Below, in pieces: positions 22,578-63,303 of a stretch of DNA of 64,000 nucleotides. The translations under genes and the position numbers were made by a program. The notes beneath the pieces were generated by a model, which worked only from the letters and a program-made list of their open reading frames with translations, did not search any database and was not told the DNA's origin. The first letter of the stretch is position 1. Every line of letters begins with the position of its first letter. The stretch covers positions 65,180,397 through 65,244,396 of the forward strand of contig NC_037088.1 of assembly GCF_002994745.2 (NCBI RefSeq). The letters are read 5' to 3'. The stretch comes from Rosa chinensis (taxonomy: Eukaryota > Streptophyta > Magnoliopsida > Rosales > Rosaceae).

Positions 22578-23093
22578 TGTACATACATGTACATTTGCAA
22601 GCATAATTAGCTATAATGAGCCACGCTCATTGTACCGCCAAAGGTACTAATTCCAACTAAAGGAATGACATGCAGACGCACCGCCAGGCGGGCTACAACC
22701 TCAGCGTTGGACCATCCCCAGATCGCCGGCGACGCGCCGCCACGCGCCACGCCAAGATAGCGTCAGAAGCTTCTGAAACTGAGAACTGAAGCATATCAGT
22801 CCCACATCGAAAACAAAGACAAGATCAGTCTCTTCCTCACCTATAAAAGGTTCTCTCCTCTCTCCTCATTAATTACGCATTCAATACTTACCTACTGTTA
22901 CTTTGTCAACATAAATACATCGACTAACTTAGGCATCGGAGAGTTGAAGACCGCCCAACGCGGTCTCCCTCTGACGCCCATTGTATTTTACTTGACAGGT
23001 AACGGGAACTACAATAACAACACAAGTATCGATCCGCCCACCGGATCAGCGTTAACTAAGGTCCAGCTACCGCTAGACTTTTAGACATTAACA
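22578..23093 (+). repeat. 5' LTR of the Tat element
   Basis: 516 bp, TG...CA. Contains a TATA box at 22842-22849. It matches the 3' LTR except for an A/G difference near position 14 and another in GAGAGTTG(A/G)AGACC. Confidence 0.95.
22842..22849 (+). promoter_or_regulatory. TATA box of the LTR promoter
   Basis: TATAAAAG followed by a CT-rich stretch, the likely start region of the retrotransposon RNA. Repeated at 46386-46393 in the 3' LTR. Confidence 0.7.
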
Positions 23094-23094
23094 T

Positions 23095-23112
23095 TGGCGC
23101 CGTCTGTGGGAA
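23095..23112 (+). promoter_or_regulatory. Primer binding site of the Tat element
   Basis: TGGCGCCGTCTGTGGGAA begins two bases after the 5' LTR. It starts with TGG, complementary to a tRNA CCA end. I do not assign the tRNA. Confidence 0.75.
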
Positions 23113-27763: not shown

Positions 27764-30700
27764 ACAATACAAGTCAGCTTTTCGGCGTTAAACAGGGGGA
27801 GGACGAATCACTGAAGGCCTTTGTCACCAGGTGGCGGGCGGCAGCATCTCAATGCCGCGACCTAGACAAGACTATGGCATCGGCGGCCTTCAGGAAGGGA
27901 CTCCTCAAGGGACCGTTCCTCTATCACCTCAATTACAACCATCCCAATGCAACGTACGACCACGTCATGAGCGAGGCGGTCATTCACGCCCAGGCGGAAT
28001 TCATTACATATGGAGAGACCCCACCGCCAGCAACGGCAACAAAGTCAGCACAACCATCTACCAGTCATCAGGAAACCGCTGACAAGCCCCCCTCAGCACC
28101 GCCAACTGATAAGAAAAGGGAATGGCAGCAGGGACACCACCAAACCAAGCGGCAGAAGGGGCAACATTATTACAAGGGAAACCGCCCAGCTCATGGGGAT
28201 AACCACAGCAAGCAGGCGGAATCCTCGCAGCGGTACGCAGTTTTCACGGTCCTAACGGCCTCATACGAAGATATCTACAATCAGTGCAAGGATCAGATCC
28301 CACCGCCACCCCCTCCAAAGTACCCAAAAATAGGCAAACCCAGGAACACTGGCAAGTGGTGCAAATACCACGCGGACAGCGGCCACAATACAAACAGCTG
28401 CAATGCTCTCAAAACGGCCATTGAGACTTTGTACCGTGACGGCAGGTTAGAGCAGTTCAAGGTGCGCCAACCACCACCAGTGATTGCCAACGTTGAAACC
28501 TTGGGCCGCATCAATACCATCGATGGCGGTGCTCCAATCACCAATATATCTCACAGGGCAAGAAAGCGATATGAACGTGCCAACCACCCGAAGGAAGTTT
28601 GCAACATCCGCTACGAAAGATCTGCCAAACTACCAAAATCAGGTTGGGAGCCTATTACCTTTTCAGAGGAGGAGGAGCGCGGAGTACATTTACCCCATGA
28701 CGACCCATTCTTGGTCGATGCCATTCTTGGCAAATTCTCGGTGGGAAGAATCTTGGTGGATAACGGGTCCGCTGTCAACGTCATCTTCAGCGGTTGCTAC
28801 GACCATCTCAAACGGAACAGGAAACTACTCCAGGATCACGAGCCACTGCTCAGCTTCTCCGGTGACATCACACAACCACTAGGGTCGGATTACATGCGAC
28901 TAGTTATTGGCACTAGTCCCTGTATGGCGGAGGTGCACACGGAGTTCATCATTGTCGACTGTTTCAGTTCGTACAACGCCATCATTGGTCGACCGGCGCT
29001 TAATAAGCTCAAGTGCATCATTGCCGGATACATGCTTCTCATGAAGTTCCCCACGCCCAACGGCACAGGCTATGTAAGGGGAAGCCAACAGCTGGCACGA
29101 GAATGCTATTCAACAACTGTAGCGCGTTCGACGCGCCGCCATGAAATCCTGACAGTGGGTAATGACCCACCACCACCGAATATCTTCGAGGATCCTAGAG
29201 ATGAGGAGAAGAAATATGTAATGAAGGAGCCGGTCAACCCGGACACGTCGCTGAAGGTCGTCTGCATCTCAGACGAACATCCGGAGAGGACGGTCCGCAT
29301 AGGCGCCCAACTGGGCCCAGAGGTGGAGGCAGAACTCACTCAGTTCCTACGTGACAACGCCACCGTCTTTGCATGGTCCTATGCGGACATGCCTGGCATC
29401 TCCGCTGAAATAATCACTCATAAGCTAACCATCAAACCTTCCTTTTATCCCATCAAGCAGAAGCGGAGGGCTTTTGACGAGGAAAAGTACCAAGCAATCG
29501 GACAGGAGGTCGCCAAACTACGGGACATTGGATTCATCCGCCAAGTCATCTACCCCCAGTGGATCTCAAATCTGGTAATGGTAAAAAATCCCAGCGGCAA
29601 GTGGCGGATGTGCGTCGACTTCAAAAATCTAAACAAGGCATGCCCAAAGGATAGTTTCCCGCTACCTCGAATCGATCAGCTGGTCGATGCAACCGCCGGA
29701 CACGAACTCCTCAGCATGATGGACGCTTTCTCCGGGTACAATCAGATCAAGATGCACCCCAGCGACCAAGAATGCACCACCTTCACCACCGACAAATGCC
29801 TCTACTGCTACAATGTCATGCCTTTTGGTCTGAAGAACGCCGGTGCAACTTATCAGCGGTTGATGAACGCCATGTTCGCTGAGCATCTGGGAAAAATTAT
29901 CGAGGTCTATGTGGATGACATGCTAGTTAAGAGCATAAAGGCCAGTGGACATGTGGCAAACATCAGGATCATAGTAACCATCCTCCTGGCCTATGGTATG
30001 CGCCTCAACCCAGAAAAATGTTTCTTTGCAGTCACCGCTAGCAAATTTCTGGGTTACATCGTCAGCGAGCGAGGTATCGAGGCTAACCCAGACAAGATAC
30101 AGGCCATCCTTAACCTGGCGGACCCGAAGTATAAGGTAGACGTCCAGTGTCTACAAGGCAAGTTAACCGCCCTCTCTCGATTCATCTCTCGACTTACTGA
30201 CAAGTGCGCCCCATTCTTCAAACTCCTCAAAACAACTCACAAGAAGGTCATCGACTGGAACCCAGAGTGTCAGGCGGCGTTCCAGAGCCTAAAAGAATAT
30301 CTGGCGGCGATCCCTCTCCTTTCTGTCCCTGTGCAAGGAGAGACATTATTCATATACTTGGCTGTCTCGGCAACGGCAATAAGTTGCGCCATTGTTCGGC
30401 GGGAAGGCCAGGATGAACTCCCAGTGTTCTACGCCGGCAGAGGCATGAACGGAGCAGAAACAAGATATTCACCGTTGGAACAGCTGGCCCTCGCACTTAT
30501 CGTTGCCGCCAGACGCCTCAGGCAATATTTCCAAGCTCACACGATCCATGTGTTAACCAACCAACCGCTGAGGCAGGTGATGCAGAACCCTGAACACTCA
30601 GGACGCCTCAGTAAGTGGGCGATTGAGCTCAGCGAATTTGACATAGAGTACAAGCCAAGAACCGCCATGAAGGGCCAGGCAGTAGCAGACTTCATCGCTG

Positions 30701-32493
30701 AACTTACTGAGCGTCAGCCGGAACCGGATACTCAAACAATGTCTGAAACAGAAATAGTAACCAATACAGAGGCAACTCCCCCACAGTCAGATTGGGACCT
30801 ACATGTGGACGGCTCCGCCTGTGCCAAGGCCAGAGGCGCCGGAGTCATCTTAACCGGACCCGGGGGACTGAACGCAGAGTACGCATTGAAATTCAACTTC
30901 AAAGCTTCAAACAATATGGCGGAGTACGAGGCGCTCATCGCCGGCCTACTCCTCGCCATTGACTTAGGAGCTGACAGCGTCAACATATTCAGCGACTCCC
31001 AACTAGTAGTTAACCAAGTCAACGACAGCTTCCAAGCCAAGGACCAGCAGTTAGCAGCATATTTGGGGTACGTCAAAACGTTGCTAAAAAAGTTCAAATT
31101 CCATACAATCACACAGATCCCCAGGGAAAAGAACGCTAAGGCTGATTCACTGGCGAGACTGGCAACCGCCCAACCACATCAGAGTCCAGCGGACACAAGG
31201 GTGGAGTGCCTGGACAAGCCAAGTATCACAAAGACCCTGGCGGAAATCTTCAACGTTCAGGTCAACCCCAGCTGGATGGACGAGATCATCACATATAAGC
31301 GCAACGGAAAGTTGCCAGAAGATAAGGTCCAGGCAAGACAGCTCCAGCGAAGGGCAACCCGCTACAACATCCAGCACGGCAAACTCTACCGCCAGGGATT
31401 CACCCATCCTAACCTCCGCTGTCTAACCCCAGAGGAGGGAAGGGTTGTCCTAACTGAAATCCATGGCGGGGAATGCGGAAACCACTCGGGCGCCAGATCC
31501 CTGACCAACCGCACAATGCGACAAGGCTACTTCTGGCCCACACTTGGCGATGACGCCCGGCGGATTTCGAGGTCTTGCCACAAATGCCAACAGTTTGCAG
31601 ATCTCCCACACGCACCAGCGGAACCACTGTCAATCATCGTGGGCCCATGGATTCATTCCACGTGGGGCCTTGACCTGATGGGAAAGTTCCAGACTGCCAA
31701 AGGTCAATTCAAATACATCATTGTGGCCATTGATTACAACAGCAAGTGGATAGAGGCGGAGCCGCTGACGGCAATAACTACCGCCAAGGTAATTCACTTC
31801 CTTTGGAAAAATATCTATTGCCGCTACGGTGTCCCACACACAATCATCACAGACAACGGCACACAGTTCAACAATGACGAGCTCATCTCCTTCACCACCA
31901 ACCTAGGCACCAAGTTGAGATTTGCATCTGTCGCCCACCCCCAGACCAACGGTCAGGTCGAAGCGGCAAACAAGATAATCAAAAAGTTACTAAAAAAGAA
32001 GCTCGACGACGCCAAAGGTTTATGGGCTGAAAGACTCCCAGAGGTCCTGTGGGCCATCCGAACAACTCCAACCTCCGCCACCGGAGAAACTCCTTTTTGT
32101 ATGATGTTCGGCACAGAGGCTGTCTTACCCATTGAAGTTACTCAACCTACCGCTAGAGTCGAAGGCTACTGCCCAGAGACCAACGGCGCCGGCGTCAACT
32201 TGGACAGGGACCTCCTAGAAGAGAAAAGACTCAAGGCCCATTTACACAATCTACAAAACAAGCAACGGGTATCACGATTTTACAACGCCAGAGTCAGGGC
32301 CCGGAACCTCCAACTGGGGGACTCGGTTATGAAGGAAGTCATTCCGCCACCGACAAAACTCCGCCCAACTTGGGAGGGCCCGTACAAAATTGTGGAAGTC
32401 GTTAGCCCAGGCACCTTCCACTTAATGGACAAGGACGGCGTCATTTCGGCCCGCCCTTGGAATACTGAACACCTTCGGTATTATTACAAATAG
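27764..32493 (+). CDS. pol: Gag C-terminus and Pol polyprotein of the Tat element
   Basis: The frame runs from the insertion border to TAG 32491-32493; the first ATG inside is at 27874, but this is the continuation of gag, not a separate start. Numbered from that ATG (1539 residues): a Zn-binding CKYHADSGHNTNSC near 168, aspartic protease VDNGSAVN with Asp at 296, reverse transcriptase YVDDM at 679-683, a first RNase H, a second archaeal-type RNase H (VDGSA, Asp 979; AEYEAL; SDSQL), integrase zinc finger ending CHKC, and catalytic D1267, D1327, E1363 (WGLDLM, TDNGTQF, NGQVEAANK). It ends in WEGPYKIV without a chromodomain. No stop or frameshift interrupts it. The first RNase H lacks the usual leading Asp (LFIYLAVSAT). 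Confidence 0.97.
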
Positions 32494-33112
32494 TCAAACC
32501 GCTACCCATGCGCATCTTGACTTAGCTAAATCTTTTGTTCAAATGTTTAGCTAAGGGAAGCTACCCAACGGGTACTACCCCACTTTTGTACGCTAATCAG
32601 TCAGCCATCAATGAAACGAGGAATTATTCAGACCATTGTTACCAAGTCTAGCACTGAGGGCAACTGGCAACCCCAGCAATCGTCGGCGGACCCCGTCCGC
32701 TACGTGGTGCACTTGGACCAATCTTAATTCCTTTAATGTTCCATTGATCGACAAAAGAAAATATAACTCAAAAATACTACACACACATCATGGCAAACCA
32801 AGTCAAAAATTTACTTTATTCCACAATTCTTTACAAACTAGTCTGCCTCGGCGGCTACAAAAAAAAACTTGGGCGGTCTCAGATAGGTTCAGCGGTTGGC
32901 TTCGGCCTCTGATGCTTCAACGGCTGGCGGGGCGACCGATCGGCTCGCTTGATCGGACCCTCGGGCTGTCGGACTGGGGGTCTCTATGGTGCCGTCGGCC
33001 CGGGTGTGTGCCTCCAGAAAACCGGCACGTGACACCTCCGACGGGGTCTGCTGGGGAGTTTGCTGGGACCCTTCCGTCGGGTGTGGGCCACTTTCTCCGC
33101 TGCCCGAATGAG
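32494..33112 (+). other. Region downstream of pol in the Tat element
   Basis: About 620 bp between the pol stop and the nested LTR element. Its right part (32889-33112), on the minus strand, is the C-terminal end of the antisense ORF; the left 400 bp appear non-coding. Confidence 0.7.
32889..33112 (-). CDS. Antisense ORF of the Tat element, C-terminal tail (separated by insertion)
   Basis: On the minus strand the frame of the antisense ORF ending at 42170 resumes exactly here once the 9-kb insertion and one ATGAG copy are removed. It runs about 74 codons to TGA at 32889-32891. The tail is polar and low-complexity (rich in P, S, T, E, Q). The match of frame and target duplication is the evidence; there is no domain of its own. 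Confidence 0.75.
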
Positions 33113-34986
33113 TGATGCGCTCAAAGCAAGCGCATAATTTAACCCTGTAATATCGTTAGTAGTATAAGTAAGTAGGGATCGTTCTATTCCGGGGATTGAG
33201 GGTACACTTGTAATTGTGAAACAAATAAAGAAAAGTATTATTTACAAAAATAAAATAAAGAATATAAATATATACAATTGTATAAACAAATAAAGAATTA
33301 AAATAATAAAGTATTATTTACAAAAATAAAATAAAGAATAAATATATACAAGTGAACAAAAATAAGGGGGGATTTTGTTTTTGGATTTTCGAAAATAAAA
33401 CTAAGTTAACAAAATAATTAAAATGCAAAAACATAAAAATAAAATAGAGTGAGAGAACAAAGATCAAAAACCGAAACATATGATTAAAATTGATTCAAAC
33501 CCTAATATTGTTCATCTAAGTCATGAGAGAGGAGTTGATCATGTGAAACATTCGAAAGCAAATGATTTCCCATATTTTACTTTTCAATGCTAATTAACCT
33601 AAGCGAAAGCACCTAGATTAATCCTATCAAACATGCAATCAAGCCCTAGAAAGCTAGTCAATCATGACATGTTTAATGCATTAGACATAGAGAAAGGCTA
33701 TCAACTCAAGTGTACAACTTAGTTATGGAAAAGTCCACCTAATTGCAATCCTCTTCAATTAAATTCGATTCTTGTCCAGAACCTTTACTACTTTTGATTC
33801 AAGTTACACAAAACGAAAAGTCGATTTCATGTTCTTAAACCTAGCACCAATTACATGCAAATCCTATAAGTGTCGACCCAAATAAGATAAACATATAAAA
33901 GTTTTCTGTAAAGCAAATTTAATCGAACAAACTCACATAAGCAACTTAGAATCACAATTATATGAATCTAAAAATTCTCAATTAATCATAAAATTCCAGA
34001 AATTAATATTCATTCAAACACATATGTCAACTAGAACAAAACCAACGAAATCAAAGCAAAGGTTACAAAGGAGAATCGGATTACACCGTGAGATGGAGAT
34101 GAGATGAACGAATTGAGGATGTGGTCTCTTGAATCTCGAAAGCAAGCTTCAAGGATGGTGATGGAGGATGATGCTCACGGCAATTCTTCTTCTCCCTTGG
34201 CCTTGCTTGAAATGTTGAATGCACTAGAGGATGGAGAGAAAATGGAAAGGAAATGGAGAGACAAAGAAGATGGAATGGATGAAGGAATTCTTGTAGGAAA
34301 TGGTGACTAAGGAAAATGGAGAGGAAATGGTGAGACAAAGAAGATGAGATGGATGAAGGAATTGGTTTAGGAAAATGGAAAGGAAATGGAGAGACAAAGA
34401 AGATGAGATGGATGAAGGAATTGGTATTGAGAGTGAGAGGAGAAGTGTATTTATAGCCCAAAAAATGATGAATGGAGGGTGGAGATGAACATAAATGAAG
34501 GGCTAGATATGTTAGACAAATTTGTAAAAAATATCTTCCCACATGTTTATCACTTGTTCAACTTGAATTGATTTTCCTCCTCAAGTTTTTCCACTTGGTT
34601 GCAACTTTGATTTTCCTCCTCAAGATTTTCCACTTCCTTGCAACTTTGATTTTCCTCCTCAAGTTTTTCCACTTGGTTGCAACTTTGATTTTCCTCCTCA
34701 AGATTTTCCACTTCCTTGCAACTTTGATTTTCCTCCTCAAGATTTTCCACTTGCTTGGAGGTCCTAAAAAAATAGAAACTAATAAGAAAAATAGAAACTT
34801 TCCTAAAATGAAAAATGGCAACTTACTAAAAATGATAAATAGAAACTACAAAAATATAAACTTTCTACAAATAGGAACTTTCCCAATCAAAGAATGGAAA
34901 CTTTCCTAAACAGGATTTTAATAAGGAAATAACGTAAGAAATGTAGGGAAATGCAGTTAAAACGTCGCATTAAAATGCTCCTATCA
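33113..34986 (-). repeat. LTR of the LARD (3' LTR in element sense)
   Basis: 1,874 bp; minus strand starts TGATAGGAGC and ends GCGCATCA. It is identical by eye to the other copy except in the terminal ~25 bp. Contains the 39-bp tandem array at 34570-34757. Confidence 0.93.
34570..34757 (+). repeat. 39-bp tandem repeat, 5 copies (in LTR)
   Basis: TTTTCCTCCTCAAG recurs at 34572, 34611, 34650, 34689 and 34728, exactly 39 bp apart, with units alternating between CCACTTGGTTGCAAC and CCACTTCCTTGCAAC. The identical array occurs at 41753-41940 in the other LTR. On the minus strand it translates as repeated LEEENQSC units, but no gene is supported. Confidence 0.9.
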
Positions 34987-35001
34987 AATTCCCCCACACT
35001 T
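34987..35001 (-). promoter_or_regulatory. Polypurine tract of the LARD
   Basis: On the minus strand AAGTGTGGGGGAATT directly precedes the LTR start TGATAGG, the expected position for plus-strand DNA priming. Confidence 0.75.
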
Positions 35002-36976
35002 AGCTTTTGCTAGTCCCTTAGCAAAATCACACTAAGACACACACTAACACTCAACGAAAATTAAAGACTCTACAAAAACAATGACTCTATTGCCCTTCAA
35101 CTTTTTGTCTCAGAAATCTCCTACTTTCACTACATCAAGATTAGCACTCAACCAAGAATCAATATATAGATATTCAAGAGTTAATTAAAACATATAATCC
35201 ACACATACACAAGTAGGACTTGGTTGTAATAATGGTGATGGTTTCTGTTAAGCATGCTTCGAACAAGTATGATTCATATCCTCACAAGGTATATCCACTC
35301 TTTCTTCTCTTAGAATTCAAGACAATGCTTAAAAGCTTATAATCACTCAATTATATGTGAGAGAAAATATTTTGAGGCAATCAAATAGCTCACATATATA
35401 AGAAACGAAAAGCACTTTGTGAATATAATTTTTTTTTTGAAAAGATCTCATGAAGGATATCAACTACTTGCACGGATGGACCCAAGCCATAGGTTCAACT
35501 CTTGTAACTCATCTCCACAAATCAAAGGCTGTCCCATCTTAAGGATCAAGAAGGTCTTATTTAGGGTTGTAATGGGGCCAAGGCTCAAGGTTTTAAGAAA
35601 TGAAGGGTAAGGATTTATCAAAGTGTCCTAAAAACCTAGCAGAGCACATGTAGATGTAGAGACCTCAAGAAATCCACCAAGGCATTGCAAAAACGTCACT
35701 TTCCCTAGAGGTAACATAAAAGGGCCTAATGTCTTCATGTTAGGCCAAATCTTCATTGTAAACTTCCCTAGAACTATAGTGGAATGGACAAAGGCCAAAT
35801 TTTTCTGTAGTGGGCCTTCAGTTCAAAGTAAACTCCAAAATCACTAAGTATGGGAGACTAAAATCCATAAACATTTTTCTTTCTTTTCTTTTCTAGCCGT
35901 ACACAATTTTTTCTTTTCTTTTCATTTTTCACGGCTTTCACAAATTTTTTTTTTTTCATGGACAAGTCTACCCCCACACTTGAACTTTCACCTCTTCTCA
36001 ATCTTCGTTCTCAATGCCAAATCCTCAAGTAAAGTCCCAAAATATAGCTCCACTAAGTTTTTAGAACAAAGGGTAGGAGTGTAGCTATACTAAGGTTCAG
36101 GGTTAAGGATTTAAGGGTGATGAAAGAAAAGGCTTAATGTAAGCTCAAAGGGGTTTATCTAAGGGAGTCCCATGACGGGCACAAATAGGGACACATGCTT
36201 ATTTGGCAATGGTGATATTTCCTAGGTTGCCTCTATCCCTTCCAGAATCAGGGCCATGTATTGACAAACGTCTCAACAAGCACAAGAGCGAATTCTAGCA
36301 TTCTCTAGTCCATCAAACTTAATCTATGGCAAGCAATCAATCAAATGAAAGAGTAATGAGATCATCAAAACATCGCCAAGAAATTAAGAATATGTTTTTC
36401 AATTATCACTCCAAGAAAAAGGGACATGGCTCAAATATCTCACATGAGCTTTTATGAATCAAAACTCATCCTAACATGCTCATATTCTGTACCAAGGTTA
36501 CGAAATCCATATCCACTACACATGCATGCATTTTTCATATATCTCAATTAACCAAAGAATACCATTTTAAAAATCATCTCAATTTTGTGATCATCTTTTA
36601 ATCATGATTTCAGAGATATAGAATCATCTTAGACAGTTGAAAGGGCATTCTAAGACTCAAAAACAAAAACAAAAGTAACCAAATTCTAGCGCCATTTTTT
36701 TTTATTTTTTTTATTTATTTTTTTTTATTTTTTTTTATTTTTTTTTATTTTTTTTTATTTTTTTAAATAATTTAATTTCAACACTTAGGTACGGGAACAG
36801 GGAGTCTCGATGTGCAATGGGACTGAAACAGCTACCCTTTTTCAAGACTATGTTTAATCCAATATACCTTAGTGCATCACAACATCAATTAAAAACACAA
36901 AAAACACAATCCAACTTCAACTATTTTTTTTTTTTTTTTTTATACTAACTACTAAAAACACAATAAAGCAATAACC
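35002..36976. other. LARD interior, non-coding
   Basis: About 2 kb without a gene-like frame. Contains T-rich tracts, notably a (TTTTTTTTATT)n array at about 36696-36770 and a T-run near 36925-36942. Confidence 0.7.
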
Positions 36977-37234
36977 CTTCCCCCATACTTAATTCATGCA
37001 TTGTCCTCAATGTATAAACAAATATAAATCATGCAAAGCATAAATCAAGCATAGAAGAGAAAATAAACACAACGAAACCTAAAACAACTTAAAATTTAAG
37101 AAAATAAAATAGAAGGAAGAGTTCAAGAAAGCAAATCTGCGTTTGATGTCTCCTCAACAGCTACAGTTGAAATGGGTTGCCTCCCATGCAGCGCTTAATG
37201 TTTAAAGTCTTTCAGCCTAGACTTGTACCTCCAT

Positions 37235-37765
37235 TTACTCCTTTGGAGGAGCGGTATGCGGGCGAGTGGCAGCCCTCTTGTTGGTTTCAGCCTTCGGAGG
37301 CGGGTCCTCATGTTGTGATGCAGTAGCGTCCTTGCGAGGAAACCCAGGAGGATAACTCTGCAAGTTATTGACTTCCTGAGCAAGCTTGTTTATTGCAGTG
37401 TGACAGCGGATCAAAGAGCAGTTCATCTCAGAGATGTAATCGATCATGCAATTGACTCTCCAATCTGTCACCATAATACCATCGCGGAGAGAGGAACGCA
37501 AATCATCAATCAAATCCGACAAGCTTTCCAGGGTGGCCATAGGCCGAGGAGCACGAGCAGCTGGTGAGGAAGAAGACTCTCCGGGATGCAGTCTGGGAGA
37601 GCGACGAGGCAGAGGAGGGGGACTGCGGGTACGCTCACGGATAGGACGATGGTCCCATGGACGAGTAAGCCCAGCTCTAGTGGCCGCTTGACGACCTTCT
37701 TCTTCCAAAGAGAGAACACGGCGTTGATTGACGCCCCTGCGAGGGGTAACCTTGGTTCGAGCCAT
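37235..37765 (-). CDS. LARD-encoded ORF of unknown function (176 aa)
   Basis: I do not recognise this protein. The ATG at 37765 opens 176 codons in the element's own sense, ending TAA at 37235-37237. The N-terminus is strongly basic (MARTKVTPRRG), followed by an R/P/S-rich region (SPPPLPRRSPRLHPG, about residues 47-62). Next comes a compact, probably helical part (about 80-145) with three Cys and two Trp/His-containing segments, and a P/A/K-rich tail. The first residues after Met, ARTK, equal the start of histone H3, possibly by chance. The start of the WUS-like gene lies 600 bp away on the other strand. It may be the remains of a gag-like or accessory protein of the element. Confidence 0.5.
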   Translation of the reverse strand: MARTKVTPRRGVNQRRVLSLEEEGRQAATRAGLTRPWDHRPIRERTRSPPPLPRRSPRLHPGESSSSPAARAPRPMATLESLSDLIDDLRSSLRDGIMVTDWRVNCMIDYISEMNCSLIRCHTAINKLAQEVNNLQSYPPGFPRKDATASQHEDPPPKAETNKRAATRPHTAPPKE

Positions 37766-37942
37766 GAGGAAGTAGAAGGAATTTGAAACTGCACGCTTAG
37801 ACAAACCTTAGTAAAATCTGGAGGAGACAAAAAAGGATGTATATGTAAAGCACAAAATAGGGTAGAAATCTCAACAGGCACACAGTTTTAACAAAGCTTC
37901 TCCGGGAAGGAGAAGAGTTATGACAGTTCACGGCCCAAGAAA

Positions 37943-38145
37943 CTCCCCCACGTGTAAATATTCCTTTCTTTTCCTGGATTTATGGCAGGCTTTCGGCTAT
38001 AGCTTGTCTGTCACAGATCCTCGAGATTCGTTTGATTCCCCCACGCGTCCTTTCTTTTCCTTGATTCACGGCAATTAAACCTGCTTTCGGCTGTAGCTTA
38101 TCTGTCACAGCTCCTCGAGATCAGTTTGGTTCCCCCACGTGTCCT
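37943..38145 (+). repeat. ~95-bp tandem repeat upstream of the WUS-like gene
   Basis: Two units (about 37943-38036 and 38037-38131) and the start of a third share CCCCCACG(T/C)GT, TTTCTTTTCCT, GCTTTCGGCT, CTGTCACAG and TCCTCGAGAT. Each unit begins with a CACGTG or CACGCG core, a G-box-like word. It lies about 105-310 bp upstream of the TATA box at 38250. Confidence 0.75.
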
Positions 38146-38249
38146 TCACGAGCCAACAGCTTTTCCGTGTTTTCGGGGGACTTTAATCCAACGCGTAGAT
38201 TTAATCTCAGAGATCGTCGATCCAACGGTGGAGATCTGCTCACTCGTTC

Positions 38250-38258
38250 TATAAATAG
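38250..38258 (+). promoter_or_regulatory. TATA box of the WUS-like gene
   Basis: TATAAATAG, 110 bp upstream of the ATG at 38368, followed by a CT-rich leader. Position and sequence fit a plant core promoter, implying that the gene could be transcribed on its own rather than from the LTR. Confidence 0.65.
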
Positions 38259-38367
38259 GTGCATTCTGAGCGACTGTTCACTCCAAAAGAAAATTCTTCC
38301 GAGTTCCAGCCTTTCTTTCTCAACCCTTCAGCCTTTCTTTCGAAACTCAAATCTTTTCTTCATCAAC

Positions 38368-39042
38368 ATGGAACCACGAACTCTGCAACTAATGGAGTTA
38401 CAAACCCAGCAACAAATGGAATTACAAGCCCAGCAACCAACCGAGGAGGGAGGAAGCATCCAAGCAGCCGGGAGTAGTAACCGGTGGGCTCCCACACCGC
38501 CTCAACTAAGAATCCTCAAGGGCCTTTACTATGATAAGGGTTTTAAGTACCCAACTCCAGAGCAGATTCAAGAGATCTGCCTTCATCTGCAACAATATGG
38601 GCAGATCGAGGACAAGAACGTCTTCTTTTGGTTCCAGAACCTCAAGGCTCGTGAGAGGCAGAAGTTGAAGGAATTTCGGAACGTTCCGGTTGGTGGATCT
38701 CTTGATCTCAATTTTGGATCCACTAGTTCTACTGATGATGGTAGATCCATTGATCTAAACTTTGGGTCACGTGTCGGCTATGGTGTTGACCCATATTCCT
38801 CCTCACCCTTCAACACTAATACCAGTACTATCTCCTTTGGCACAACAGGAGGACAATCTTTCATGGAACAACGAGGAGGAGATCACCAGGAGATTGAAAC
38901 CCTTCCACTATTCCCCATGCATGGTGAGGACATCTTTGGCAACATGAAGACTACTTCCGAGGGAGGTAGTGGCTATGGCGGTGACTCTCGCATTTCCCTT
39001 GAGCTCAGCCTCAACTCCTACAAAGATGCAGACATGGCTTAG
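38368..39042 (+). CDS. WUSCHEL-type homeobox protein, intronless, inside the LARD
   Basis: Uninterrupted 224-residue protein. ATG 38368 starts MEPRTLQLME; the open frame further upstream has no ATG. Seen: Q-rich N-terminus, WOX homeodomain about 36-102 (RWAPTPPQ to WFQNLKARERQK), two DLNFGS repeats (113-118, 129-134), WUS box TLPLFPMHG at 178-186 and EAR-like LELSLN at 211-216. WUS proteins are nuclear regulators of shoot stem cells; the WUS box and EAR motif recruit TOPLESS-type repressors. Family genes normally have introns, so this is probably a retrotransposed copy carried by the element. It is shorter than Arabidopsis WUS (292) and has Leu in helix 3 (QNLKARER) where WUS has His. It runs opposite to the element. 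No stops or frameshifts, and a TATA box is present. A WUS-clade assignment is likely; expression is unknown. Confidence 0.92.
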   Translation: MEPRTLQLMELQTQQQMELQAQQPTEEGGSIQAAGSSNRWAPTPPQLRILKGLYYDKGFKYPTPEQIQEICLHLQQYGQIEDKNVFFWFQNLKARERQKLKEFRNVPVGGSLDLNFGSTSSTDDGRSIDLNFGSRVGYGVDPYSSSPFNTNTSTISFGTTGGQSFMEQRGGDHQEIETLPLFPMHGEDIFGNMKTTSEGGSGYGGDSRISLELSLNSYKDADMA

Positions 39043-39053
39043 TTTAGAGTATT

Positions 39054-39190
39054 ATTATTATTTTTTTTTTGTTTTTTTTTGTTTGTTTTTTTTTTTTTTT
39101 GTAAATAGCTGAATTTAATAAGACTGAATGAATGCAGTTTTTTTTTTTTTTTTTTTTTTTTAATAATATAGGACTCAAAAATAAAAGACA

Positions 39191-39228
<38 letters not shown>
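39054..39228 (+). repeat. Poly-T and (AT)n low-complexity tract
   Basis: T-rich runs at about 39060-39100 and 39139-39161, then an (AT)n microsatellite at about 39200-39227, starting 12 bp after the stop codon of the WUS-like gene. Confidence 0.9.
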
Positions 39229-39234
<6 letters not shown>

Positions 39235-39510
39235 TAGGACTCAAAATGAAAGACAAAAATATAAATCCCTTCCCCCACACTTAAATATTGCATTATCCTC
39301 AATGTAATCAATTAAAAGCATGCAATGAAATAAGTAAGCATAGATAGAAGACATTTACGAAAACAAATCATAAAATAAAAACAATAGAGAAAAAAATGAA
39401 AAATAAAAAAGAAATAGGGAAAGAGAAAGCAAATCTGATTATATTCTGAATTGGGTTGCCTCCCAAGTAGCGCTTGTATTTTACGTCTTGCAGCCAGACG
39501 GTACCTACAT

Positions 39511-40294
39511 TAAATAAAGTTAGTAACTATAATTAACAAAGAAATACAAAATAAAAACAAGTATAACTATTAATTGCAAACTACAAGTATAATTAACAAG
39601 TATAATGTACATAAGACACAAGTTAAGTACTCAAGTGAGTATAAAACGTGAAAAGTATTTTTACAAGTTTAAAGTGTGAAACAACAAAACTAATTTACAC
39701 GTATAGAGTATTCACAAGTATTTCTTTTATTATAAACATTATTGATATCGAATCAAATTCCAAGGGGTAAATCAAGTGGACGTGCGGCCCAAGTATAGTC
39801 GCCTAGACACAAACTCCCTTTCAAATCGTTTGGGCAACCTTACTGAAATGGCCAGGTGGGGGAGGACGAACACGAGAGGAAAAATCCATTTTGGCATGAG
39901 CTACTCCCACATAGTGGTTTAGGCCCATTTGCAAGCACTTCTGGATTCAAAAACCCGTCATGAACGTTGTCCCCTTCCTAGACACCATTCCACATAGGCT
40001 ATACTTACTAAGATGAGAAAGTTCATAAGTGTGAAGACAGTTCAACAAGTGTTAATAAAGGCCGCCCTCAACCTTAAGGGACCTGAGCTAGGTACCAATA
40101 AGGGGTTTAGGCCAATATTAACAAAAGAGACTTCACCTATTCCTCTCAATTTACAACCTACAATTAAAATTCGTGTTCAATAATATAAATAATATTTAAA
40201 CTAAGTTTTAAACAATTTATATACAACAAATATATACAATAAATGATACAATTTAGCAAGTGATTTTTCAATCCCCGGCAACGGCGCCAAAAAT
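39511..40294. other. LARD interior next to the 5' LTR
   Basis: About 780 bp of non-coding leader between the right internal repeat and the primer site. No frame is supported. Confidence 0.6.
40273..40289 (-). promoter_or_regulatory. Primer binding site of the LARD
   Basis: On the minus strand TGGCGCCGTTGCCGGGG follows the LTR end after five bases. The sequence is the type usually read as complementary to tRNA-Asp in Athila-like plant gypsy elements. It fixes the element's orientation as minus. Confidence 0.85.
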
Positions 40295-42169
40295 TGACGC
40301 GCCTGAAAGCAAGCGCGTAATTTAACCCTGTAATATCGTTAGTAGTATAAGTAAGTAGGGATCGTTCTATTCCGGGGATTGAGGGTACACTTGTAATTGT
40401 GAAACAAATAAAGAAAAGTATTATTTACAAAAATAAAATAAAGAATATAAATATATACAATTGTATAAACAAATAAAGAATTAAAATAATAAAGTATTAT
40501 TTACAAAAATAAAATAAAGAATAAATATATACAAGTGAACAAAAATAAGGGGGGATTTTGTTTTTGGATTTTCGAAAATAAAACTAAGTTAACAAAATAA
40601 TTAAAATGCAAAAACATAAAAATAAAATAGAGTGAGAGAACAAAGATCAAAAACCGAAACATATGATTAAAATTGATTCAAACCCTAATATTGTTCATCT
40701 AAGTCATGAGAGAGGAGTTGATCATGTGAAACATTCGAAAGCAAATGATTTCCCATATTTTACTTTTCAATGCTAATTAACCTAAGCGAAAGCACCTAGA
40801 TTAATCCTATCAAACATGCAATCAAGCCCTAGAAAGCTAGTCAATCATGACATGTTTAATGCATTAGACATAGAGAAAGGCTATCAACTCAAGTGTACAA
40901 CTTAGTTATGGAAAAGTCCACCTAATTGCAATCCTCTTCAATTAAATTCGATTCTTGTCCAGAACCTTTACTACTTTTGATTCAAGTTACACAAAACGAA
41001 AAGTCGATTTCATGTTCTTAAACCTAGCACCAATTACATGCAAATCCTATAAGTGTCGACCCAAATAAGATAAACATATAAAAGTTTTCTGTAAAGCAAA
41101 TTTAATCGAACAAACTCACATAAGCAACTTAGAATCACAATTATATGAATCTAAAAATTCTCAATTAATCATAAAATTCCAGAAATTAATATTCATTCAA
41201 ACACATATGTCAACTAGAACAAAACCAACGAAATCAAAGCAAAGGTTACAAAGGAGAATCGGATTACACCGTGAGATGGAGATGAGATGAACGAATTGAG
41301 GATGTGGTCTCTTGAATCTCGAAAGCAAGCTTCAAGGATGGTGATGGAGGATGATGCTCACGGCAATTCTTCTTCTCCCTTGGCCTTGCTTGAAATGTTG
41401 AATGCACTAGAGGATGGAGAGAAAATGGAAAGGAAATGGAGAGACAAAGAAGATGGAATGGATGAAGGAATTCTTGTAGGAAATGGTGACTAAGGAAAAT
41501 GGAGAGGAAATGGTGAGACAAAGAAGATGAGATGGATGAAGGAATTGGTTTAGGAAAATGGAAAGGAAATGGAGAGACAAAGAAGATGAGATGGATGAAG
41601 GAATTGGTATTGAGAGTGAGAGGAGAAGTGTATTTATAGCCCAAAAAATGATGAATGGAGGGTGGAGATGAACATAAATGAAGGGCTAGATATGTTAGAC
41701 AAATTTGTAAAAAATATCTTCCCACATGTTTATCACTTGTTCAACTTGAATTGATTTTCCTCCTCAAGTTTTTCCACTTGGTTGCAACTTTGATTTTCCT
41801 CCTCAAGATTTTCCACTTCCTTGCAACTTTGATTTTCCTCCTCAAGTTTTTCCACTTGGTTGCAACTTTGATTTTCCTCCTCAAGATTTTCCACTTCCTT
41901 GCAACTTTGATTTTCCTCCTCAAGATTTTCCACTTGCTTGGAGGTCCTAAAAAAATAGAAACTAATAAGAAAAATAGAAACTTTCCTAAAATGAAAAATG
42001 GCAACTTACTAAAAATGATAAATAGAAACTACAAAAATATAAACTTTCTACAAATAGGAACTTTCCCAATCAAAGAATGGAAACTTTCCTAAACAGGATT
42101 TTAATAAGGAAATAACGTAAGAAATGTAGGGAAATGCAGTTAAAACGTCGCATTAAAATGCTCCTATCA
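40295..42169 (-). repeat. LTR of the LARD (5' LTR in element sense)
   Basis: 1,875 bp partner of 33113-34986, offset by 7,183 bp. It differs from it only within the first ~25 bp (TGACGCGCCTGAAAGC here, TGATGCGCTCAAAGC there, and G/A a few bases later). Carries the 39-bp array at 41753-41940. Confidence 0.93.
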
Positions 42170-44491
42170 ATGAGCACCTGCAGCTGGAGCGGCCACTTCT
42201 GTCTCCGCCGGGACACTTTCGAGCGGCGGCACGTCAGGCTGTGACGCCTTTGCAAAGTCAATGGCACCCTTCCGCTTCAACATATCTATATTGGCCCGGG
42301 CGCCAGACTTCGCCGCTTCGGTCAGCGTCTTCTTAAACTCCGCCGACTGCTTGAATGCTTCAACAGCAGCGGCCGCAGCGGCGCTCCCCTCAGCTCTCAG
42401 ACGGGTAACCTCACCCCCCAGCCGCTTCAGTTCGGCCATCCTTTCGGCGGACTCCCGCTGCACTATAATGAGCTTCTTGTCTTTGGCGGCTATCCGCTCC
42501 TGCAGCAGCCCGATCTCCTGCTCCAACTTGGAGACGTGTTCATTCCTCTCCAGATCCCGCCGAATGGCCGCATTAAGCTTGCCGCGGGCGTCCGCATAAT
42601 CACATTCCGCCTTGACCAGTCCCCGCTCGAGCTCCGCCAGTCTCTCCTTGGCCTCCGCCAGCTCCCTCTGGAGACCTCCGATTTCTCCCTTGAGCTCTTC
42701 CTCAACCCGGGACTGCTTTGACGCCGCCACGAACATATCGTGTAACCCCGCCGATATTTGACCAAACGCCGAGCTGAAGGGCGATTGGTCAATTGCCGTC
42801 GGGCGCGATATGCCCGCCAGACCCCCGAACCCCAACCGCTCGCACAGATGGAAGAGGAACTCCCGCTCCCCTTCTGTCATGAATGGCGCATACTCGGCGA
42901 AGGAGTCCAGATCGCTGACGGCGGGCGCCTCTCCCTCCACCGTCGCAGTTTTTGCAGGAGCTTGGCGGGCCTTCTTCTGTCGGCGGGCCCCAACCACCTC
43001 CACCTCTTCTCCTTCTTCCTCGTTAGGAGACTCAGCCGTCCGGCGCTTTTTCTCCAGCGCCCTCTGGCCCCCAGCGGCGGCCCTCGTCGCCCTTACTGGC
43101 GGTTCCTCCCTCGTCACAATGACTTCTCCCGCTGGCTGAACCACCTTCTGAGGACCACGCCTCTGGGCAGGCATCCGCTCCTTCTGAGGCCCGGCCGCAA
43201 CACTTCCCCTCTGATCCCCGCCGGCCGTCTGTGTCCCCGCCTGCACCACAGGCAGACCATCTTCACCAAGGTGAGACTAGTGCGGCATCGCCATCACCAC
43301 CGGAACCTCGGACTGGCTCAACGCCAACGTCTCCGGGTTCACCAGAGTCTGCTGGGCCGCCAGCCCCTCGGCGTATATGGCCTCCAAAAAATTTTCTATC
43401 TCCGCCCGATCCATCGCTTTCTCAAATGCGTCGCGACTTGATTTATTGCCCGGCGGAGTTTCTAAAAAAAAAAAAAAGAGGGAAGACAGCCACCAGTCAG
43501 ACACAATTCAGTAGTATAAAACGAAACGACAAGGTAGACTCCTCACCAATGGAGCGTGTTAGTCGCAGGTCGACCAATAACTCCCAACCAGTCAGCAGGC
43601 GGAAATCAAGCAAGTTTCGGTTCCGCCAGCAACCTCTGATCCTCGCCACACGGCACTCTTCTTCGCGAGTCAGCGTATACCGAAGTCCCGCTGCACAAAA
43701 AAAAAACACATCGATAGTAAGAATACAAGTTCAAGCACGCAAGCACGCCAAACATTTTCAGCGGACACCGGACACCAACCTCGAATAGGTTGGAACTCAG
43801 ACTTAATCCTAAATGACGGCCCTTCTTCGTTCGACCTAGCGTGGTACTCCCAACCGTCTGTAGCAACGCAGAAGGTCCCCCGCCAATAGGACATGGAGTC
43901 CCTCAGATTCTCGATCAGCTTGGGGGCTCCCTGCCGGCGACTCAAGTTCACTTGCCCTTGGCAGCCTCGGCGCTTCACGTACACCAACTCGTAGAAGTGA
44001 AGCACTTCCGCCACGGTTGGCCCCTCACACCCGGATAACCGCCAAAGGGAGTTCACGGCGAGCAACAGGAGCCACATGTTGGGGCAAATCTGACCCAACG
44101 CAAGGCCAAATTCGCACACCAGGATCTGGAGGTTGGGCACCAGCGGGAGTGTCACCCCTTGGCGGAATACCGCCTCGTGAACGGCAGCAGATCCCGGCGG
44201 GAGAATAGACGCCTTCTCATCCGCTGTCGGCGGACGCAGCTTCACCGACCCCGGCAACCGGAACGTCTGTTTCAGCCGGTTAACCGCAGCGGCCGTCATC
44301 CGCCCACCTGCCTCGTCAACGGCAGTGCCATCTGACAGGACCCACGCCGATTCCGCATGCTGCCCCGCTACGTCTTCTTCCCCAGCGGAGCCGCTAGCAG
44401 CACTATTACTCGCCAGACGCTCGTCGCGCCTGGCTTTGGCGGCAGCGGCCTCGCCCGCCTTAGAACTCTCCGGACGCGAACCCCGACCCAT
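42170..44491 (-). CDS. Antisense ORF of the Tat element (three-exon gene, 3' end cut off)
   Basis: Minus-strand gene opposite to gag-pol. ATG 44491; exons 44491-43780, 43690-43547 and 43461-42170, with GT-AG introns whose phases match (1 nt carried over at both joins). It continues after the nested element at 33112-32889. Exon 1 encodes a domain (RLPGSVKLRPP, then LGQICPNMWLLLLAVNSLW, then FYELVYVKR) of the kind annotated in plants as putative gypsy-type transposon protein (Pfam Transposase_28, from memory). Exon 3 encodes a long E/R/L-rich coiled coil (about 43-42.4 kb). Tat elements are known for such antisense ORFs of unknown role. Odd: one in-frame TAG at 43277-43279, either a true stop or part of a short unrecognised intron (a GT...CTGTGGTGCAG candidate spans it). 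Confidence 0.75.
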
Positions 44492-46121: not shown

Positions 46122-46637
46122 TGTACATACATGTGCATTTGCAAGCATAATTAGCTATAATGAGCCACGCTCATTGTACCGCCAAAGGTACTAATTCCAA
46201 CTAAAGGAATGACATGCAGACGCACCGCCAGGCGGGCTACAACCTCAGCGTTGGACCATCCCCAGATCGCCGGCGACGCGCCGCCACGCGCCACGCCAAG
46301 ATAGCGTCAGAAGCTTCTGAAACTGAGAACTGAAGCATATCAGTCCCACATCGAAAACAAAGACAAGATCAGTCTCTTCCTCACCTATAAAAGGTTCTCT
46401 CCTCTCTCCTCATTAATTACGCATTCAATACTTACCTACTGTTACTTTGTCAACATAAATACATCGACTAACTTAGGCATCGGAGAGTTGGAGACCGCCC
46501 AACGCGGTCTCCCTCTGACGCCCATTGTATTTTACTTGACAGGTAACGGGAACTACAATAACAACACAAGTATCGATCCGCCCACCGGATCAGCGTTAAC
46601 TAAGGTCCAGCTACCGCTAGACTTTTAGACATTAACA
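46122..46637 (+). repeat. 3' LTR of the Tat element
   Basis: 516 bp, same ends as the 5' LTR, followed by the target duplication TTATG. Confidence 0.95.
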
Positions 46638-47050
46638 TTATGAATCTCAGACAACAATTAATAAGTCATCGTTGTTGTGTGTATTGAGTCTCAGACAACA
46701 AGAAGAAAATTATAGTTGTTGTGTGTGATGGATTTCAAACAACAAATGATGAGTCATAGCTATTGTGTCTTATGAATCTCACACAACAAAGAAAGAATTA
46801 TAGCTGTTGTGTGTTATGAATCTCAGACGACAACAGAAATTATCTTCTGTTGTCTGAATGGCTCGACCCATCCCCGCGCATGCCATGGCAGCACATGCCT
46901 GCGTAGAATTCACACAACAAAAAATAATTATTGTGTTGAGCCAACTATTATCAGACGACAGTGGAATCACCGTTGTGTGATCTTTCAATCATACAACACT
47001 GACTTAGACCACGGTGGACTTCTTCATCAGATAACAGAAATCCACCATGT
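46638..47050. other. Continuation of the CACTA-like subterminal array
   Basis: The ACAACA / TTGTTGTGTG motif array resumes directly after the retrotransposon and runs to about 47030. No clear terminus (expected CTTTTTGTAGTG) is found at its end. Confidence 0.5.
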
Positions 47051-60381: not shown

Positions 60382-60690
60382 TTGGGCAGTTCATGCTGCT
60401 GGCCTGCTGCAATTAAACAAAACACCTAGTGCTGCAACTTTAAAGAAAAAAGAAGGAAGACAACATTAAGTTTTCTGTTCGGGTAGATTCTTTTTTTTCA
60501 TCTTCAAATTCTTCTCTTCTTCCTCTCATTCTCTCAATTCACAACTCTCAAGTCTCAAGGACTCAAAGAGGGAGGACGGGAGGCTTGCGTTGCCAGCATA
60601 TTAGATTTCTCATATTCAGCCATTCAGGTTCTATTGTTCATTCAATCATTTGTTCGATTGATATTTGTCCTTTTATTTTTCATTAGAGTA

Positions 60691-63303
60691 ATGTTTCCTA
60701 AGAAATATGCTTCTGGTAGTGAAAAAAGAAAAAGAAAAAAACAACAAGAAGATTTTATAAGCTCCCAAAGAGGTTCTTTGGATAAGTTTTTTATGAAAAG
60801 AGGTGTTTCTTCGGAAAATCATGGTGAAAATGAGGTAACTGAAGGAGTTCAAGATATAGGTGAGTCTGGTGAGAACGAAAATGAGGTAGCGGAAAGAGTT
60901 GAAGATATAGGTGAAACTGAAAATGAGGTAGCCGAAGGAGTTGAAGGTATAGGTGAACATGAAAATGAATCAAATGATCAAACAGAAAATATGGAAGAAA
61001 CAAATGTGCTTGAAAGTGAGAATATTGAAATAAATCGTGTGAGTGAACCTTTAGAAGGTACAATACCTTTGAATATATATGATCCTAGAGTTTGGGAAAG
61101 TTTAGATGGAAAAATGAGAGATATGCTTGTTGAAAAAGGTCCTATTAGAGAAACTAATATTGTTTTTCCTAAGGATAATCTAAATAGGGGGTTCTCTTTG
61201 GATTATTTTTCTCAAAAGATGAGTAATGGTGAACTTTCCGATAGAAAATGGTTGGTTTACTCAAAAGATTTGGATAAAGTATTTTGTTTTTGTTGTAAAC
61301 TTGTAAGAAAATCTCATTCTAGGAGTCAGTTAGCAAATGAAGGAATTAATGATTGGAAACATTTGGGGGATAAGCTTAAACAACATGAAAAGAGTCGTGA
61401 ACACCTCTCTAACCTTAGAGCTTGGAATGAGCTACGAGTGAGATTGAGCACAAATCAAACAATTGATAAAGAATTACAAGAGCAAATCAAGAAAGATACA
61501 GAGCATTGGAAAGAAGTCATGGTTAGGGTAATTAGTGTTATTAAACGTCTTGCTATGAATAATATAGCCTTTCGTGGAACAAATGAAAAAATCTATGAGG
61601 ATTCAAATGGAAATTTCTTAGGCTTTCTTGAATCAATAGGAGAGTTTGATCCAATAATGAAGCATCATTTTCGACTCATTCAAAATAAAAATATTCATTA
61701 TCATTATCTTAGTCATAAAATACAAAATGAATTGATAGCTATGTTGGCATCAAGTGTCAAGAGTGCGATTATAAAGAAGATTAAAGAGGCTAAATATTTT
61801 TCTGTGATTCTTGATTGCACCCCTGATGCTAGTCACAAAGAGCAAATGACTTTGATAATAAGATGTGTAGATGTTGCAAGCTGCCCAATAAAAGTAGAAG
61901 AGTATTTTTTGGAGTTTTTAAATGTAGAAGATACATCGGGTTTGGGTCTTTTTAATGAACTACAAGCTGCTCTAAGTTCTCTTGATTTAGATATTGATGA
62001 TTTGAGGGGACAAGGTTATGATAATGGTTCCAATATGAGAGGAAAACACCAAGGTGTCCAGAAAAGGTTACTTGACATAAATCCTAGAGCTTTTTATATG
62101 CCATGCGGTTGTCACTCTCTTAATTTAGTACTTTGTGATATGGCAAACTCTTGTGTAAAAGGAAAATCATTTTTTGGAGCATGTCAGGCCATTTACAATG
62201 TGTTTGCTAATTCAACAAAGCGATGGAACCTTTTACTTGAATATGTAGATGAATTAACATTGAAATCTTTGTCGGCTACACGGTGGGAAAGTCGTATTGA
62301 AAGTGTGAAAGCAATAAAATCTCAATTTCCCAAAATAAAAGAAGCTTTAATCAAACTTGCTGAAATTGGTGATGCATATGATAATCATTTGAGTTGGGAA
62401 GTTGGGAAATTATTAGATGGTGAATTTTCAAGTTTTGATTTCATTTTAAGTCTGGTTATATGGCATGATATTTTGCACAAAATAAACATGGTGAGCAAAA
62501 ATTTGCAGGCTAAAGATATGATTCTTGATGTTGCTAATAAAAGTTTAAAAGGGTTGATTTCATTTTTTGAAAAATATAGAGAAAATGGATTTAATTCTAC
62601 TATAATTGATGCTAAAGAAATTGCAAATGAAATGGGAATTGAGCCTGTATTTCCTGTGAAGCGTAGGGTTAAAAGAAAGAGACATTTTGATGAGATTCAT
62701 GATACAGATAGAGAACAACAATCAGCTCAAGAAGATTTTAGAACTGATTACTTTCTTGTCTTAGTTGATATGGCTATTTCTCAATTGAAGAGTAGATTTG
62801 AACAAATGGAAAGTTTTGAATCTGTATTTGGCTTCTTATTTGATGCATCACAGTTGGTTTCATTGGATGACGAAGAAATGAAAAATTGTTGCTTGAAACT
62901 TGAACTTGCTTTGAAACATGGTGAGGTGTCTGATATTGATGCAAAATATTTGCTTTCTGAGTTACAAGTATTGCAGGAAATGCTACCAAATGAAGCATAT
63001 GAAACAGGAAACCCATGGAATTCCATTAAAATTATGGAGTTTGCAAAAAAAATGGATATGTTTCCAAATATTTTAGTTGCTTATAGGATTTTATTGACTA
63101 TACCTGTTACAGTGGCATCTGCAGAAAGAAGTTTTTCAAAATTAAAGTTATTAAAATCTTATTTGCGGACAACAATGACTCAAGATAGGTTGAATGGTTT
63201 AGCAATCTTGAGTATTGAAAAGAATATGTTGAAAAATATTGAGCTTGAGCACATAATTGATGATTTTGCTTCTAAAAGTGCAAGAAGAAATCATTTTAGA
63301 TGA
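60691..63303 (+). CDS. hAT transposase (TTF zinc finger, DUF4371, C-terminal dimerisation domain)
   Basis: 870-residue protein without a stop or frameshift. The ATG at 60691 ([17 protein letters not shown]) is preferred; upstream in-frame codons lack an ATG. Seen: a basic, nuclear-localisation-like N-terminus; acidic repeats ([13 protein letters not shown] type, about 45-110); a TTF-type zinc finger with [10 protein letters not shown] and a later DWKHLGDKL...HEKSREH (about 190-255); a DUF4371/RNase H-like core with [11 protein letters not shown] and [18 protein letters not shown], then [11 protein letters not shown] (about 370-500); and the hAT dimerisation motif [20 protein letters not shown] near 805-825. 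Family members cut and paste elements with 8-bp target duplications, exactly what flanks this one. Proteins of this type are often annotated as zinc finger MYM-type protein 1-like. No sign of decay. Confidence 0.95.

Follow-up and report, generated by a model that had tools for sequence, protein, structure and literature searches.

An intronless WUSCHEL relative carried in antisense orientation by a non-autonomous LTR retrotransposon of Rosa chinensis

The WUS-like frame and its carrier element

The window, a stretch of 64,000 nucleotides located at 65.18-65.24 Mb of C1 in the 515-Mb genome of Rosa chinensis 'Old Blush', harbors a WUSCHEL-type (WUS-type) frame between two LTRs (Table 1). Read as an ORF, positions 38368-39042 contain no stop codon across 224 codons, and the deduced protein matches both the Pfam Homeodomain profile (42.4 bits for a cut-off of 22.9) and the WUSCHEL homeodomain structure 6ry3 (E 9.6e-22). 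The earlier note, which had described an uninterrupted 224-codon frame with a homeodomain, a WUS box and an EAR-like motif, is thus exact on this point. As a WOX-type homeodomain, a WUS box and an EAR-like motif are all found, the protein can be assigned, from its sequence and from the tree described below, to the WUS clade of the WOX proteins. The linker of the cargo displays a DLNFG-type unit repeated two to four times (38698-38769 in the window, and in copies L045, L047, and P0028), which by eye resembles the stretch SISHNFGS of the host protein. In P0028, a protein from R. rugosa, the first linker unit is DLNFGP and resembles DLNxxP, a repression motif.

Table 1. Positions of the carrier element, its cargo and their parts within the window
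Feature	Position	Strand	Details
Target-site duplication ATGAG, left copy	33108..33112		5 bp
3' LTR	33113..34986	-	1874 bp, TG..CA ends, 99.8% identical to the other LTR
Polypurine tract candidate AAGTGTGGGGGAATT	34987..35001	-	adjoins 3' LTR; assigned by eye
orfM, sense ORF	37235..37765	-	176 codons
Divergent intergenic region orfM/cargo	37766..38367		TATAAATA at 38250, two CACGTG boxes
WUS-like cargo ORF	38368..39042	+	224 aa, antisense to the element
Homeodomain	38479..38670	+	residues 38-101 of the cargo, 64 codons
WUS box ETLPLFPMHGED	38896..38931	+	residues 177-188 of the cargo
EAR-like motif SLELSLN	38995..39015	+	residues 210-216 of the cargo
tRNA-Asp primer binding site	40272..40289	-	perfect 18-nt match, beside 5' LTR
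5' LTR	40295..42169	-	1875 bp, TG..CA ends
Target-site duplication ATGAG, right copy	42170..42174		5 bp

The whole element extends from 33113 to 42169 on the minus strand. Its LTRs differ by three mismatches and one gap over 1876 aligned bp and are bordered by perfect ATGAG duplications starting at 33108 and 42170, as had been noticed before. A total of 21 copies were read with their LTRs (the window and L009-L028). The duplication of the window is not due to chance, since exact 5-bp duplications, each different from the others, are also carried by 12 of the 20 further copies; none was found by script in the other eight, some of which have partial LTR alignments. An 18-nt word complementary to the 3' end of tRNA-Asp is present in all 21 copies, as a perfect match in 20, and in each case the WUS-like frame is on the other strand; a tRNA-Asp gene with a matching 3' end is found in the same genome. 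In L022, which looks rearranged, the primer site is located further out. Considering that the primer site of the window lies on the minus strand by the right-hand LTR, the element reads leftward and its cargo is antisense to it, a point missed in the earlier note.

Between the LTRs, the only ORFs of at least 100 aa are orfM, one overlapping orfM, and the cargo. The element is a non-autonomous LTR retrotransposon, LARD-like and devoid of polymerase genes of its own; while a LARD in the strict sense has a large non-coding interior, two conserved ORFs are present here. No internal stop occurs in orfM in 19 of 20 aligned copies, and its omega is 0.56 (p 0.007). As regards a possible gag function of orfM, a Pfam search gave no match, and only six protein relatives were retrieved, the named ones being from Rosa chinensis. 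Among the 150 orfM places listed (the best 150 of 705 candidates), 66 have a WUS place, itself from the best 150 of 684 candidates, at no more than 1.26 kb, and in all 66 cases the two are on opposite strands. Upstream of the cargo, TATAAATA is found exactly in 13 of the 21 copies.

The WUS element is nested in a young Ty3/Gypsy element (22578-46639) whose LTRs, at 22578-23095 and 46122-46639, are 99.6% identical. This outer element shows a weak gag match at 23147 and pol at 27874-32493 on the plus strand, followed by two minus-strand ORFs (42167-43249 and 43670-44491), one of which gives weak coiled-coil-type matches. Frames resembling a hAT-type transposase (60634-63303), an ABC transporter (7522-9486), and a UDP-glucosyltransferase (2622-4139) are also present in the window.

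Copies in the rose genome and origin of the cargo

A genome-wide copy count, proposed earlier as a check, gave 684 first-look candidates with the cargo protein as query; scoring of the best 150, all of which match, yielded 170 matches, of which 150 are listed. A coverage of 187 residues or more is reached by 135 of these listed matches, 124 of them without a stop, intact frames being over-represented because the listed copies are the best matches. This jumping gene is likely present in hundreds of copies. Besides the host gene, a search with Fragaria WUS (823 candidates, 132 scored) revealed a second, older set of sequences at 51-83% identity.

The two LTRs of a given copy are 97.3%-99.96% identical in 20 of the 21 copies and 84.9% identical in L022; identity exceeds 99% in 14 copies, and five pairs are without any substitution. 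At a substitution rate of 1.3e-8 per site per year, the insertion in the window would be about 60,000 years old. Compared with the window, the other copies are 97.8-99.6% identical in WUS and 97.2-99.3% in orfM, and their LTR pieces are mostly 80-92% identical, with 95% for L009 and 98.8% for one piece of L022 (L016 has no LTR piece long enough for this comparison). The much larger differences between LTRs do not point cleanly to selection on the ORFs, since noncoding DNA next to the primer site has a mean pairwise difference of 0.018, close to that of orfM (0.021) and WUS (0.014); LTR-versus-ORF divergence was consequently dropped as an indication of selection.

The source gene is the rose WUS gene itself (L029), located at C2:11.711-11.713 Mb, which contains two GT-AG introns (882-967 and 1078-1412, an alternative acceptor 3 nt away being also possible) and encodes 299 residues when spliced. 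It has the same domains as the cargo but differs by its introns, a longer middle part and different last residues. The window frame is therefore not the ordinary WUS locus, and its proposed derivation from a spliced WUS transcript is borne out by the old copy L030, which aligns across both host exon junctions and lacks both introns at the exact splice sites. Exon 2 itself has become largely unrecognisable in the window copy. In all seven of the oldest copies (L030-L036), the match to the host ends at +1297 to +1299 from the ATG, i.e., inside the coding region, with 22-24 nt left to the end of the host stop codon, and the same element sequence follows. The old copies, ending in the coding region and joined to element DNA, are thus devoid of a poly(A) tail, which argues for template switching rather than LINE-type retroposition. 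The flanking DNA of L030 matches that of L047 (106 bp, 86%), which, within the lineage that led to the window copy, resembles WUS most. By eye, and in L047 alone, the tail after the EAR motif resembles the element sequence downstream of the old junction.

In a tree of 28 proteins, 23 cargo-type sequences, 16 from R. chinensis and seven from R. rugosa (the latter as proteins alone), form one clade with 97% ultrafast bootstrap support. Rose WUS is the neighbour of this clade in the drawing, joined to it at a node without printed support, and the WUS proteins of Fragaria and Argentina fall outside. Within the clade, sequences of the two rose species are intermingled, which makes an old capture likely, only the insertion being recent. 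The recent mobilisation proposed earlier thus stands for the insertion, in view of the 99.8% LTR identity, but not for the capture. Most simply, and likely, a spliced mRNA was captured a single time before R. chinensis and R. rugosa diverged. Given that dS between host and window is 0.92 in the homeodomain and 0.17 in the C-terminus, the cargo ORF is likely a mosaic resulting from C-terminal recombination, and no dating was based on it.

Two further observations concern the surroundings of these genes. In the 5' region of host WUS (L029 together with L091), a stretch of ~340 bp, about -559 to -220 from the ATG, is absent in L030 and L031 and is flanked by a 16-bp direct repeat, ACCTCTCTGTCAACTT. 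It is likely an insertion that occurred after the capture; a leader intron in the 5' UTR was considered and rejected, as there is no GT-AG at the gap and the repeated ACCTCTCTGTCAACTT flanks fit an insertion. Beside the old copy L033, L093 contains an open stretch of 201 codons with a DTGA motif, recognised by eye as protease-like; this stretch may belong to the early carrier element or to a neighbour.

These copies bear on a published gene-family study in which 381 RcWOX genes were counted in rose, 364 of them in rose-only clades and 226 on chromosome 2, for 170 WOX genes in R. multiflora, 105 in R. rugosa, and 6-40 in the other Rosaceae named (PMC11405225). Whole-genome duplication or breeding is suggested there as the cause; clades I-V are treated as host genes, and the string 'transpos' does not occur in the main text (PMC11405225). 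Proteins with the same motifs as the window cargo, namely TLPLFPMHGEDI..GNMKTTSEGG and SLELSLNSYRDADMA of clade V, are indeed counted among the 381 genes (PMC11405225), as expected if the cargo were part of an ordinary WOX expansion. However, introns are absent from the copies examined, all 21 of those read with their LTRs are enclosed by LTR-like pairs, exact target-site duplications border 13 of these 21, and the same source gives zero collinear genes within rose (PMC11405225). An ordinary expansion is already refuted for the copies examined and seems extremely improbable overall. The shared clade V motifs suggest that the 381 RcWOX genes are likely for the most part LTR-element cargo, an explanation not given in the available text of PMC11405225. 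Their puzzling number would then be explained, and studies on the rose WOX gene family and its expression would need correction. In rooting material, clades I-IV are almost unexpressed, the passage concerned leaving out clade V (PMC11405225).

Purifying selection on the homeodomain

Omega values were obtained with our own MG94-type codon likelihood using trees per domain, and count-based tests were run alongside. The young sample corresponds to 41 of the 150 listed copies. As these were chosen among the best protein matches, replacement counts are lowered in all parts of the ORF, and the contrast between the homeodomain and the rest serves as an internal control.

That the cargo is a passive passenger, i.e., a neutral hitch-hiker that is still open because the insertions are young and is of no use to element or host, has several points in its favor. 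In the young copies (set V), omega is 0.93 for the whole ORF, which is not different from 1, and 1.05 for the C-terminal part; the LTR identities and the low divergence of the noncoding DNA beside the primer site given above also agree with it, and we know of no expression of the cargo. In contrast, the homeodomain is constrained in four overlapping sets of copies, with p below 0.005 in each: omega is 0.14 in the young V copies (p 2.1e-5 against 1; 41 copies given, 20 distinct used), 0.37 in V and B together (p 6.3e-7; 63 given, 36 used), 0.51 in B (p 0.003; 22 given, 16 used), and 0.28 in family A (p 0.0015; seven sequences). On the internal branches of V and B, the value is 0.44 (p 0.006). 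On those of family A alone, omega is at the upper bound, and a model with two omegas beats one with a single omega (p 0.023).

The counts agree with these values. Among the 41 young copies, 15 silent and 6 replacement variants are found in the homeodomain, vs 21 and 64 in the rest (Fisher p 1.5e-4). On the basis of the element's own noncoding mutation spectrum, the expected share of replacements in the homeodomain is 0.68 and the share seen is 0.29 (p 2.4e-4), this deficit of replacements, and hence excess of silent changes, being not seen in the other three parts of the cargo. No antisense ORF of at least 60 aa lies over the homeodomain in the window. Purifying selection is detectable, within the cargo, in the homeodomain only. 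The earlier note had held that relaxed constraint in all copies would speak against its reading; the homeodomain values of 0.14-0.51 show that constraint exists and is confined to that domain. As, in addition, the homeodomain is intact in lineages that, by the tree, separated before the split of R. chinensis and R. rugosa, we consider a passive passenger unlikely.

The residues R38, F85, N90, R94, I66, and Q89 are those named in a paper on the structure of WUS bound to DNA (PMC7203112). Among the readable V and B copies, R38 is retained in 60 of 60, F85 in 61 of 61, and both N90 and R94 in 63 of 63, while I66 is retained in 60 of 61 and Q89 in 62 of 63. In family A, Y replaces F85 and V replaces Q89 in all seven sequences.

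Another proposal is that repression is the main activity of the cargo, which would use its WUS box, EAR motif and DLNFG units, e.g., against host silencing or differentiation genes. Residues of the WUS box and EAR motif are invariant in a 15-sequence alignment (T178, L179, L181, F182, P183, H185, E187, S210-L213, and L215), and the DLNFG units are repeated in the linker. Nevertheless, the young copies show no silent excess in these motifs, with two silent and two replacement variants in the WUS box and three of each in the EAR motif, and a mainly repressive function appears rather improbable.

Alternatively, the rose could have recruited some copies to regulate WUS, in trans or through small RNAs, host selection maintaining the homeodomain. 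The restriction of constraint to the DNA-binding part would fit, and an altered WUS could compete with WUS. However, constraint extends over many copies at different insertion sites, mostly young ones in the sample measured, and host selection at one locus is hard to invoke for such a pattern, so that host use seems a poor candidate.

Possible role of the cargo and comparison with known elements

Rather than host use, the reading that we regard as probable is that of an intronless WUSCHEL relative, lying antisense in a non-autonomous LTR retrotransposon and likely captured once and long ago, whose homeodomain is predicted to be a DNA-binding factor favouring the spread of the element. A spliced WUS mRNA would have been captured a single time in an ancestor of roses. 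As the cargo frame opposes LTR transcription, it would be transcribed from a divergent promoter of its own, putatively located in 37766-38367. The protein may then bind WUS-type sites in host or element DNA and keep or set a meristem-like expression, so that transposition would take place in cells that later form gametes, the enzymes for reverse transcription having to be supplied by another element. Several observations speak against this reading, namely the omega values close to 1 for the whole ORF and the C-terminal part of the young copies, the result for the internal branches of family A, the presence of an exact TATAAATA upstream of the cargo in only 13 of 21 copies, the lack of significant enrichment of WUS target motifs in the element, and the near absence of expression of clades I-IV in rooting material (PMC11405225).

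A bolder version, which we put forward only tentatively, would make this element a plant counterpart of oncogene-carrying retroelements, the WUSCHEL homeodomain being kept by element-level selection beyond the R. chinensis/R. rugosa split and used in shoot or floral stem cells to reach the germ line. The transduced oncogenes of animal retroviruses are cellular growth regulators carried in spliced form. As in these viruses, a spliced cellular growth regulator is carried on a retroelement that may profit from it, although this is an analogy only, and unlike them the rose element has an antisense cargo and no envelope gene was seen in it.

Self-regulation through WUS sites was rejected as evidence for such a role. 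The WUS target motif TGAATGAA occurs three times in the element for 1.1 expected, which is not significant (p 0.11), and TTAATGG does not occur (2.2 expected). Only CACGTG, a common plant promoter word, is over-represented, with three occurrences for 0.3 expected.

LTR elements with host coding sequences have been described in other plants. Bs1 of maize likewise carries pieces of host genes, from an ATPase and others, but as segments none of which is a full-length ORF (PMC13317346), unlike the rose element, in which most of a transcription-factor frame lies antisense in a large family with one domain under purifying selection. LTR captures have also moved host genes in rice and sorghum, most of the rice set being under negative selection, with over a thousand different captured sequences per genome (PMC13317346); in rose, by contrast, one developmental regulator was amplified in one lineage through a speciation. 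An abundant Tat-like family of rose, of Ty3/Gypsy type, also has additional ORFs, the extra one encoding a class II transposase domain (PMC6786968). In the available text of these sources, WUS, WUSCHEL, and homeobox are not mentioned in PMC6786968, nor homeobox and Rosa in PMC13317346, a 2026 review on plant gene capture. Among the papers listed by a search of titles and the beginnings of abstracts, mostly outside subscription journals, none reported a WUS or WOX cargo in an LTR element; the earlier note likewise knew of no described LARD with a WUS cargo.

In this family of rose elements, many mobile copies can be compared to pin down, to a single domain, the selection that acts on a captured regulator, so that one can test whether a plant transposon benefits from a developmental regulator of its host. 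A set of WUS homeodomains diversified in nature is also of practical interest, WUS being employed to stimulate regeneration.

The young copies are unevenly distributed along the chromosomes. Among the young places listed, 143 of 150 fall in four blocks (C1 56.4-68.5, C2 33.7-88.6, C3 0-16.6, and C7 2-21.2 Mb) that represent 20% of the genome, the others being on the small contigs C33 and C43 (three each) and on C5 (one). The older WUS places, typed from the older list after merging split rows and excluding the host gene, lie within these blocks in 26 of 127 cases (20%), equal to the blocks' share of the genome, and show an even spread; as the blocks were drawn from young copies, only the contrast between young and older places counts. 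One published assembly places SC1, an S-locus allele of 'Old Blush' that is identical to one of R. multiflora, at 5.5 Mb of Chr3 (PMC9527601); SC1 would fall inside a block if C3 is Chr3 in the same orientation. The blocks would be explained by a burst in an R. multiflora-related ancestor followed by hybridisation into 'Old Blush', one locus being weak evidence for it. Young copies arranged in this way may mark hybrid ancestry or one parental haplotype of 'Old Blush'.
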